Shown: piece after piece, positions 9,522 through 60,808 of the stretch | Layout of the letters: the number at the start of each line of letters is the position of its first letter | Position numbering within the stretch: position 1 is the first letter of the stretch | NCBI RefSeq assembly: GCF_900163755.1 | Contig: NZ_FUKI01000092.1 | Coordinates: 62,001 to 126,000, forward strand | Direction: 5' to 3' | Length of the DNA stretch: 64,000 bases | Source: Crenothrix polyspora | GTDB taxonomy: Bacteria > Pseudomonadota > Gammaproteobacteria > Methylococcales > Methylomonadaceae | Position numbers and translations under genes: made by a program | The notes under the pieces: model-generated | What the model was told of the DNA's origin: nothing | The model's database searches: none | Seen by the model: only the letters and a program-made list of their open reading frames with translations

Positions 9522-10003
9522 AAGAGCTTATTATTAACACACCGTCCATCCTTAACTTAAAACAAAAATCCTCATCTGCGTTTTTGTCATTTATTTTTTG
9601 GCTTATCTGGTTTTATCTGTGGATACCGTTATCCACCTTTCTCAGTTGGTATATGGGTTTCGACTTAATCCATTTTCAGATTATTGAGCTAAAACACAAT
9701 GCAAAATTTTTTGGCGAGCTGTATTTTTTTGGTAAAGTATTAACCGTTTTTGGCCTGACTTTTGCTGCGTGGGTATCTTACAATTATTACCGCTTTCGAT
9801 ATATCGAAAGAAGAGGTCAAGCATTTCATGTAGTAGGCAAAGATTTGGCGGATCACTTTAATGTCAATTTGTTTTCCTTAATAGAACAACAATCCTCTAA
9901 GTACATCAGTGTCAGTTTTGATGACGATGGCAATATTATTAACCATGAATCCATTAGCTTGATGGACAGAAAAAAGTTTGCTGACAGCCTATTAAAAGAA
10001 TAA
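9518..10003 (+). CDS. pgaD: PgaD, small membrane subunit of the PGA synthase
   Basis: The product has 161 residues. Two transmembrane helices (about 22-46 and 68-90) are followed by a basic stretch (YNYYRFRYIERRG) and a cytosolic tail. This is the PgaD layout, and the gene is last in pgaABCD, overlapping pgaC by 4 nt. The tail of about 65 residues (DLADHFNVNLFSL...) is longer than I would expect for E. coli PgaD. In E. coli PgaD joins PgaC in cyclic-di-GMP binding. A palindromic family A repeat begins 5 nt after the stop and probably forms the transcript end. Confidence 0.85.
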   Translation: MKELIINTPSILNLKQKSSSAFLSFIFWLIWFYLWIPLSTFLSWYMGFDLIHFQIIELKHNAKFFGELYFFGKVLTVFGLTFAAWVSYNYYRFRYIERRGQAFHVVGKDLADHFNVNLFSLIEQQSSKYISVSFDDDGNIINHESISLMDRKKFADSLLKE

Positions 10004-10007
10004 CCGC

Positions 10008-10152
10008 GGCTGCTCACATAAGACGGGACAGTTTCAGCTTAAGCCGTTCGTGGTGAGCTTGTCGAACCATGATCGGATTAACCGCCCACCCTTCGACAAG
10101 CTCAGGACGAACGGTTAATCCTTGTACTGTGTCCCGTCTTATGTGGGTAGCC
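10008..10152. repeat. family A palindromic (MITE-like) element after pgaD
   Basis: This 145-bp element has inverted ends GGCTGCTCACATAAGACGGG and, on the other strand, GGCTACCCACATAAGACGGG. Inside lies an inverted pair of REP-like units: CCGTTCGTGGTGAGCTTGTC from 10044, and its complement ending at 10114 (CTCAGGACGAACGG). It fills the gap between convergent pgaD and alr and would fold into a long hairpin. Confidence 0.85.
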
Positions 10153-10166
10153 ATAATCGCCAAGCT

Positions 10167-14026: not shown

Positions 14027-14135
14027 GCTAAGGAACGCGCACGAAATAACTTGAGCAAGTTCATGCTTCGACAGGCTCAGCACGAACGGTGGTGGCGTTT
14101 AAGTTGTTCAAGTTATTTCATGCACGTTCCTAAGC
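14027..14135. repeat. family B palindromic (MITE-like) element, copy 1
   Basis: The element is 109 bp with inverted ends GCTAAGGAACGCGCACGAAA and, on the other strand, GCTTAGGAACGTGCATGAAA. It carries one REP-like unit (GCTTCGACAGGCTCAGCACG). The same 109-bp length and arrangement recur at 43609, 45719 and 50960. A family A element follows after 27 nt. Confidence 0.85.
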
Positions 14136-14162
14136 ACAGCGTATTAGCTAATTTCTAAAATT

Positions 14163-14285
14163 GGCTACCAACTTAAAAATAGACAACTTTAAATAAAACC
14201 GTTCGTGGTGAGCTTGTCGAACCATGAACCACAAATCCTTCGACAAGCTCAGGATGAACGGATGTCCCGTCATAAGCTAGTAGCC
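14163..14285. repeat. family A palindromic element upstream of the glycosyltransferase
   Basis: The ends are GGCTACCAACTTAAAAATAG and, on the other strand, GGCTACTAGCTTATGACGGG. An inverted REP pair lies inside (CCGTTCGTGGTGAGCTTGTC ... TTCGACAAGCTCAGGATGAA). It ends 35 nt before the ATG of the glycosyltransferase gene, so it may affect that gene's expression. Confidence 0.8.
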
Positions 14286-22874: not shown

Positions 22875-22999
22875 GGTTACCGACTTAATGCAGGACAATA
22901 CCTGAGAATCTGGATTAGAAAAGGTATTACCCCCCCTCATCCCAGCCGCCTCCCCCCCTGGAGCAGGTGCAATATTTATCCCGCGTTAAGTCGGTAGCC
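22875..22999. repeat. family A element with a non-REP interior
   Basis: The inverted ends are GGTTACCGACTTAATGCAGG and, on the other strand, GGCTACCGACTTAACGCGGG. The interior lacks the REP core and is C-rich (CCCCCC tracts near 22931-22957). It lies 85 nt upstream of the secreted hydrolase gene, in an otherwise featureless 490-bp spacer. Confidence 0.7.
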
Positions 23000-28214: not shown

Positions 28215-28362
28215 GGCTACCGGCTTAATAAGAGACAAAATGTAGGTTGAATTGAACGCTTTTCTCAACCCGACATTCCCATTGTAAATGTTGGGTTGCC
28301 AAACAGCAGGCAGCTCAGCCTACTTGAATAATATTATTTTTGTCCCATTTGTATGGGTAGCC
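28215..28362. repeat. family A element carrying a GTAGGTTG-type inner palindrome
   Basis: The inverted ends are GGCTACCGGCTTAATAAGAG and, on the other strand, GGCTACCCATACAAATGGGA. Its interior has GTAGGTTGAATTG, a TTGGGTTG unit, and CAGCCTAC, related to the common GTAGGTTGGGTT repeats, instead of the REP core. The ends define the family while the cargo varies. Confidence 0.75.
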
Positions 28363-28727: not shown

Positions 28728-29033
28728 GACCTCCTCCCCTAGCTAAAGCAAGGGGATTCCTTATTGCTAAGGAGCAGGCGTACATCGTTATTACCTGCTG
28801 GTTTCTGCTGCTGACGACATTGTTGCACCGTTCACTTCACAGACTAGCCCCGTCAGCCCAACGGTTGATTTCATAATTGCCGTTATAAAACGAGCCTAAG
28901 CGGTCTTGATTGTAGCGAATATAGCCGCACTAAACAAGTGACTAAACCCTTTTAAGGCTCGGTCTATGCTTGCTGTGCAGGTCGCATTCATCCCGCCCTA
29001 AATCGGCTGGTTTTTTTGCTCATTTGGATAAAT
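28728..29033 (-). mobile_element. second relic of an IS200/IS605-type tnpB end / omega-RNA-like scaffold
   Basis: This copy is inverted relative to 790-1100 and about as long. On the minus strand it encodes the same frame end (STVGLTGLVCEVNGATMSSA then AETSR, stop at 28791-28793), then the GCAA-tetraloop hairpin, then the CCCCTTGC/GCTAGGGG hairpin ending GAGGTCAAC. Many differences between the copies fall at frame-neutral places, and both keep the stop. The remainder of tnpB is absent. Confidence 0.75.
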
Positions 29034-43608: not shown

Positions 43609-43717
43609 GCTAAGGAACGCGCATGAAATAACTTGAACAACTTAAACGCCACCACCGTTCGTGCTGAGCTTGTCGAAGCATGAACGTGCTCAAGTTATTT
43701 CGTGCGCGTTCCTAAGC
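43609..43717. repeat. family B palindromic element, copy 2
   Basis: The element is 109 bp with ends GCTAAGGAACGCGCATGAAA and, on the other strand, GCTTAGGAACGCGCACGAAA. It contains CCGTTCGTGCTGAGCTTGTC. It is in opposite orientation to copy 1 and is followed after 7 nt by a family A element. Confidence 0.85.
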
Positions 43718-43724
43718 GGATTTT

Positions 43725-43858
43725 GGCTATCCACTTAAGACCAAACAATAAACTACAACTACCGTTCGGCCTGAGCTTGTCGAAGGCTGTTGTTCATGGT
43801 TCGACAAGCTCACCACGAACGGCTTAACCTGAAACTGTCCCGTCTTAATTGGGTAGCC
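43725..43858. repeat. family A palindromic element between the two symporter genes
   Basis: The ends are GGCTATCCACTTAAGACCAA and, on the other strand, GGCTACCCAATTAAGACGGG, with an inverted REP pair inside. It ends 43 nt before the start of the second symporter gene, so it sits in that gene's promoter or leader region. Confidence 0.82.
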
Positions 43859-45718: not shown

Positions 45719-45827
45719 GCTAAGGAACGTGCATGAAATAACTTGAACAACTTAAACGCCACCACCGTTCGTGCTGAGCCTGTCGAAGCATGAACTTGCT
45801 CAAGTTATTTCGTGCGCGTTCCTAAGC
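45719..45827. repeat. family B palindromic element, copy 3
   Basis: The element is 109 bp with ends GCTAAGGAACGTGCATGAAA and, on the other strand, GCTTAGGAACGCGCACGAAA. It has one REP-like unit, CCGTTCGTGCTGAGCCTGTC. It is nearly identical to copy 2 and in the same orientation, 2.1 kb away. Confidence 0.87.
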
Positions 45828-50959: not shown

Positions 50960-51068
50960 GCTTAGCAACGTGTATGAAATAACGTGAGCAAGTTCATGCT
51001 TCGACAGGCTCAGCACGAACGGAAGTGGCGTTTAAGTTGTTCAACTTATTTCATGCACGTTCCTTAAC
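50960..51068. repeat. family B palindromic element, copy 4, reaching into a coding sequence
   Basis: The element is 109 bp with ends GCTTAGCAACGTGTATGAAA and, on the other strand, GTTAAGGAACGTGCATGAAA. Its right end covers the last five codons and the stop codon of the dynamin-like gene. Confidence 0.85.
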
Positions 51069-60568: not shown

Positions 60569-60678
60569 GGCTATCCGCTTAAAGCGGCACATCCGCTCGC
60601 CCTGAGTTTGTCGAAGGGCTTGTAGTTCAGTTCACCACGAACGATTTTAAAAAAATATCCCGCCTTAAACGGGTAACC
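60569..60678. repeat. family A element (diverged copy) upstream of the GGDEF-EAL gene
   Basis: The ends are GGCTATCCGCTTAAAGCGGC and, on the other strand, GGTTACCCGTTTAAGGCGGG. The REP pair inside is mutated (CCGCTCGCCCTGAGTTTGTC, CACCACGAACG). Confidence 0.7.
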
Positions 60679-60702: not shown

Positions 60703-60808
60703 GGATTATCTACTTAACTGGAGACAAAAAAATAATATAATTCAAGCAGGTTGAATTGCTTGCTGTTTGGCAACCCAGCCTGTATTTTGTTACGTTAAAT
60801 TGGTAGCC
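60703..60808. repeat. family A element with a GGTTGAATTG-type interior
   Basis: The left end is GGATTATCTACTTAACTGGA and the right end on the other strand is GGCTACCAATTTAACGTAAC. The interior CAGGTTGAATTGCTTGCTG ... CAACCCAGCCTG resembles the interior of the element at 28215. It lies 24 nt from the previous element. Confidence 0.6.

Follow-up and report, generated by a model that had tools for sequence, protein, structure and literature searches.

Bacterial MITEs such as Nezha, NEMIS/Correia and MITEAba12 are short, non-coding, intergenic sequences present in many copies, which share inverted ends with an insertion sequence (IS) and are flanked by target site duplications (TSDs). REPINs and BIMEs are palindromic doublets of REP sequences, the GTAG-type REPs being associated with RAYT (PMC3116915, PMC3733652), and REP dimers have been reported inside longer palindromes in three other species, with no transposon named (PMC3733652). 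The stretch of DNA analysed here (the window, 64,000 nucleotides from Crenothrix polyspora) contains repeats that resemble both kinds of sequence.

Seven elements with shared ends had been proposed in the window, and all of them are present, each bounded by inverted ends of 22–23 bp (consensus GGCTAYCNNCTTAAGNNGGGACA) and starting within about 1–3 bases of the position given in the original prediction. Their interiors are also of the types that had been described, namely a REP pair, a GTAGGTTG palindrome or C-rich DNA. None of the seven overlaps an ORF of at least 90 aa. The elements and their duplications are as follows:

10008–10152, no strand: MITE of 145 bp, ends GGCTGCTCACATAAGACGGGACA / GGCTACCCACATAAGACGGGACA enclosing a REP pair
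10000–10007 and 10153–10160: 8-bp TSD of the preceding element, 7 of 8 bases identical (ATAACCGC/ATAATCGC)
14163–14285, no strand: MITE of 123 bp with a REP pair inside, TSD CTAAAATT perfect
22875–22999, no strand: MITE-like element of 125 bp, C-rich interior, no visible TSD
28215–28362, no strand: MITE of 148 bp, GTAGGTTG-type palindrome doublet as interior, perfect TSD TCAATTCA
43725–43858, no strand: MITE of 134 bp with a REP pair inside, TSD CGGATTTT perfect
60569–60678, no strand: MITE of 110 bp, degenerate REP-pair interior, no visible TSD
60704–60808, no strand: MITE of 105 bp adjoining the preceding element, short GTAGGTTG-type interior, TSD with 7 of 8 bases identical (AATATTTG/CATATTTG)

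Thus, 8-bp TSDs are perfect at three of the seven elements, match at 7 of 8 bases at two and are absent at two. For the motif GGCTACC-N0-25-TTAA, 1.06 occurrences would be expected in the window and seven are observed, a number reached in none of 100 shuffles; one of these matches (48934) lies outside any element and two represent the same end.

Other repeats were observed alongside these elements. A second family of about 110 bp (GCTAAGGAACG...CGTTCCTTAGC) carries a single REP at its centre and has four copies in the window:

14027–14136: copy of the second repeat family
43609–43717: copy of the second repeat family
45719–45827: copy of the second repeat family
50960–51066: copy of the second repeat family

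The boundaries of this family are fixed by a further copy elsewhere in the genome, located within L003 1211–1469, because it interrupts the right end of an element of the first family (family A), beside a duplicated TAAG; this suggests that the second family is a MITE with a TSD of about 4 bp. The window also contains a long inverted repeat pair (864–1097 and 28728–28957, about 28 kb apart), complementary at 91% over 160 nt and at 98% over 59 nt, each copy of which includes a hairpin with a GCTTTAGCTAGGGGAGG-like sequence. Elsewhere in the genome, a RAYT-like gene (L417 1345–1890, G000:C36) is accompanied by adjoining GTAG-type REPs (GTAGGATGGGTAGAGGCGTGAGCC) that differ from the REP carried by the MITEs, and the transposase frame of an IS1595-family element (L031 1170–2304, G000:C99) is seemingly interrupted by a REP (...PFVLSLSKHG...).

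When the whole genome was searched for the 23-bp end, allowing up to three mismatches, 152 matches (76 + 76) were obtained, compared with 1 + 0 for the same pattern read backwards. In a sample of 62 non-redundant elements from retrieved regions of the genome, 38 were flanked by an 8-bp TSD with at most one mismatch, against a mean of 0.9 and a maximum of 6 for shuffled flanks, and the length of the duplication was constant at 8 bp. The elements are short, multi-copy and devoid of coding capacity, they have empty sites in relatives, and their terminal inverted repeats are common to an autonomous IS (see below). Since the inverted ends occur throughout the genome and 8-bp TSDs flank 38 of the 62 sampled elements, the seven repeats of the window are MITEs, a known kind of element. 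An exact end search of public genomes and a search of relatives revealed elements with these ends in Methylococcales, Leucothrix, Desulfobacteraceae and cyanobacteria (Hormoscilla, Symploca and Xenococcaceae); among those of them chosen for a TSD with at most one mismatch, the duplications were mostly perfect and the interiors mostly consisted of other palindromes. The proposal that the ends are the mobilised unit is therefore borne out by paired ends with 8-bp TSDs both genome-wide and in other phyla. Our literature search found no paper on these ends, the sole match being an unrelated Drosophila paper.

Empty sites were found for both the MITEs and the IS. Four IS copies in G010, a genome of the same family, interrupt other repeats, uninterrupted copies of which correspond to the flanks rejoined with one 8-mer (98–100% identity over 120 bp). 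For a REP-loaded 122-bp MITE of G002, the window's genome contains the corresponding empty site, 85% identical and ungapped, in which the duplicated 8-mer is present once. Furthermore, the element at 10008 is absent from the orthologous site in the two same-genus genomes G001 and G002, and that at 14163 is absent from the corresponding intergenic region of G002.

A probable transposase gene lying between matching ends was found in relatives. In G010 (3.0 Mb), which contains about 38 matches to the Pfam family DUF6399, many of the ends bound an IS of about 1.70 kb whose 23-bp ends match those of the MITEs and which is likewise flanked by 8-bp TSDs, as three copies exemplify:

L287 476–2187: IS copy with perfect TSD TATGGATA
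L290 229–1930: IS copy with perfect TSD CAACATTA
L293 1309–3012: IS copy with perfect TSD TATTTTTT

Where the reading frame is fully open, the IS encodes a single protein (about 540 aa) matching DUF6399 (PF19936, E=6.5e-63), and other copies are frameshifted. Pfam describes DUF6399 as a 'family of unknown function'. G001 has an intact copy, 1704 bp long and containing an ORF of 540 aa, although without a matching duplication in its flanks. The window's genome was found to contain no intact DUF6399 gene, only a relic of 47–48 aa abutting an end. The autonomous copies, with DUF6399 between matching ends and flanked by an 8-bp TSD, define a DUF6399 IS group. The stop codon of the transposase ORF falls within the right inverted repeat (CTG GAT GTC CCG TCT TAA, LDVPS-stop), and most homologues have VP before a final S, A, T or L. 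The constancy of the GGGACA and TTAA blocks is thereby explained, since the right inverted repeat also supplies the final codons of the gene.

A four-member alignment of DUF6399 proteins shows DETFF, DRA-ALIK and SSAVEGRNG among its invariant positions, which point to a probable D-D-E triad formed by D149, D204 and E455 of the G001 protein. Some members possess an N-terminal helix-turn-helix. No Pfam transposase domain was found in DUF6399 members, and a sequence search of the PDB returned no match supporting a DDE fold. A structure prediction based on six sequences was of low confidence (mean pLDDT 47.7); its secondary structure, consisting of three strands, a helix, a strand and a helix followed by further helices, would fit an RNase H-like core, although we give this no weight as evidence. 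None of the open-access papers searched mentions DUF6399, and its role as a transposase thus appears to be undescribed in them.

DUF6399 was detected in 5 of 61 relatives and the ends in 20 of 61, all five DUF6399 carriers having the ends (Fisher p=0.003). Since the relatives G011, G016 and G005 harbour many ends without DUF6399, the link between DUF6399 and the MITEs rests on identical ends and not on universal co-occurrence. Across the phylum, the distribution of DUF6399 is patchy (11 of 399 genomes). It also occurs in five plasmid records, with Acaryochloris, Crinalium and Thiodictyon among the hosts, where it is annotated merely as 'DUF6399 domain-containing protein'. More distant DUF6399 elements have other terminal inverted repeats that likewise start with GG; two of them, the Thiodictyon copy and one from a second lineage, again show exact 8-bp TSDs (GTCCAACC at L413 and CCAATCTT at L328). 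Phage records yielded no DUF6399 homologue; a 53-kb contig of the IMG/VR viral collection (L414, IMGVR_UViG_3300002092_000058) carries an intact DUF6399 IS with ends GGCTACCCACTTAAAGCGGGACA and TSD TTCATTTT, and it is a possible vehicle of the IS between hosts.

Two other mobile systems could in principle account for the repeats. Ends beginning with GG and 8-bp TSDs are also features of IS1595, the family whose ends look most similar at first glance. One of its elements starts GGCTATCCACTTGA in another family of the order (L069), and two IS1595 remnants occur in the window's genome. Nevertheless, derivation of the MITEs from an IS1595-family element is extremely unlikely: the IS1595 ends of about 40 relatives (40–41) mismatch beyond approximately the first 13 bases, in contrast to the DUF6399 elements, which agree over all 23, the IS1595 copy of the window's genome has different ends (GGCTCTTATTGAG...), and no IS1595 ORF was found near any end-matched locus examined. 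IS1595 was rejected as the partner, no transposase of this family (PF12762) being found between these ends. It is only slightly less improbable that the repeats are ordinary REP or BIME clusters moved by RAYT, a Y1 transposase, and that the ends are simply the outer parts of such clusters. Such an origin would fit the REPs present in most interiors, the RAYT-like gene with adjoining REPs in the genome, and the REPs reported inside longer palindromes of other species. To our knowledge, however, Y1/IS200-type transposition leaves no target duplication, and 8-bp TSDs are the rule for these elements; moreover, the same ends are found with unrelated or almost no interior, and they bound an IS. The ends are thus distinct from ordinary parts of REP clusters.

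Several unrelated types of interior are indeed exchangeable between the same ends. Within the sample of 62, REP pairs (TTCGACAAGCTCAG type) occupy 32 elements, 20 of them with a TSD, GTAGGTTGGGTTGA doublets nine (eight with a TSD) and GTAGGGTGGGC doublets four (all with a TSD), so that each of these three types is amplified together with the ends; the remaining types are singletons or pairs, and that of the 22875 element is single-copy. A 134-bp class was found at three loci between three different duplications (TAAAAACT, TTTAAAAG and TAATTGTG), and therefore ends and REP cargo transpose as a whole unit. The original prediction held that the ends had been captured around older repeats, the segment between them becoming a unit. 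This is rather unlikely, although two loci speak in its favour: a chimeric unit (L099 1165–1416), in which a whole GTAGGTTG unit and half of a GTAGGGTGGGC unit lie between duplications CTTATTGA, uses the ends of two different elements, and a 1.3-kb unit between CTCGTTGT duplications (L093 5475–6776, G000:C33) includes family A copies of 193 bp that carry REP pairs and are arranged in tandem. Ends of different elements can therefore also pair. Against capture around a resident REP cluster stand minimal forms of 68–69 bp with perfect TSDs, together with loaded and unloaded forms whose subterminal sequences are nearly identical, the REP pair being the main difference. A Methylomonas assembly has a 69-bp element (TSD GTTTCTTG) that differs at 1–3 of 69 positions from 145–146-bp elements at other sites; the latter additionally hold a REP pair flanked by copies of GGTTAAGCC. 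Similarly, two elements of 68 and 125 bp in a Methylobacter assembly are distinguished mainly by a 57-bp hairpin, with differences at 5 of 68 positions. Since loaded and unloaded copies of one genome share their subterminal sequence, gain of REPs in the loop, or their loss from it, fits better: a MITE loop that already existed may have been invaded by REPs, or recombination between the short repeats may have removed them.

Taken together, these sequence comparisons make it very probable that the repeats of the window are MITEs of an IS group whose transposase is DUF6399. The DUF6399 protein would recognise the inverted ends of about 23 bp and transfer any segment bounded by two such ends to a new site, generating an 8-bp target duplication there; it would presumably be catalytic and act on the MITEs in trans. 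The lack of TSDs at the 22875 and 60569 elements counts against this explanation. The MITE loop may serve as a tolerant cargo space that REP doublets and GTAG-type REPs entered repeatedly, probably by their own mobility, before being amplified with the ends. Given that only a 47–48-aa transposase relic was found in the window's genome, its MITEs are probably immobile now unless the enzyme is resupplied. More tentatively, we suggest that host-specific REPs could generally use DUF6399 MITEs as a landing pad and shuttle; they would enter by a RAYT-type route and then be dispersed by an unrelated DDE-like transposase, a double parasite that would have recurred in Methylococcales, Leucothrix, cyanobacteria and Desulfobacteraceae.

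These findings indicate that DUF6399, a Pfam family without an assigned function, probably provides the transposase of an IS group found in several phyla and on plasmids, and they explain one class of palindromic repeats that methane-oxidising bacteria carry. They also provide a case of one mobile element carrying another, in which REP-type DNA moves along inside MITEs, and the loaded and unloaded copies within one genome offer sequence-level examples for the long-open question of how REPs spread.

In comparison with known systems, the DUF6399 group resembles IS256 and mutator-type elements in its 8-bp TSD and in its putative D-D-E triad with a long helical region before the E. One DUF6399 member weakly matched the NCBIfam model IS256_Zn_var (1.7e-6), far below the curated cut-off (27.5 against 150 bits); other members gave no match or remained below the cut-off, with the G001, IMG/VR and plasmid members among those that did not reproduce the match, and assignment to the IS256 family was rejected. 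The MITEs share with Nezha, NEMIS/Correia and MITEAba12 all the features listed at the outset, but their interiors comprise several unrelated palindrome types instead of one conserved body, and their IS partner has an uncharacterised transposase. Assignment to REPIN/RAYT was likewise rejected on the basis of the 8-bp TSDs and the non-REP ends, even though the interiors themselves are REP-type palindromic doublets like those of REPINs and BIMEs. What sets them apart from these doublets is that the REPs are carried within an unrelated element, one that generates 8-bp TSDs.
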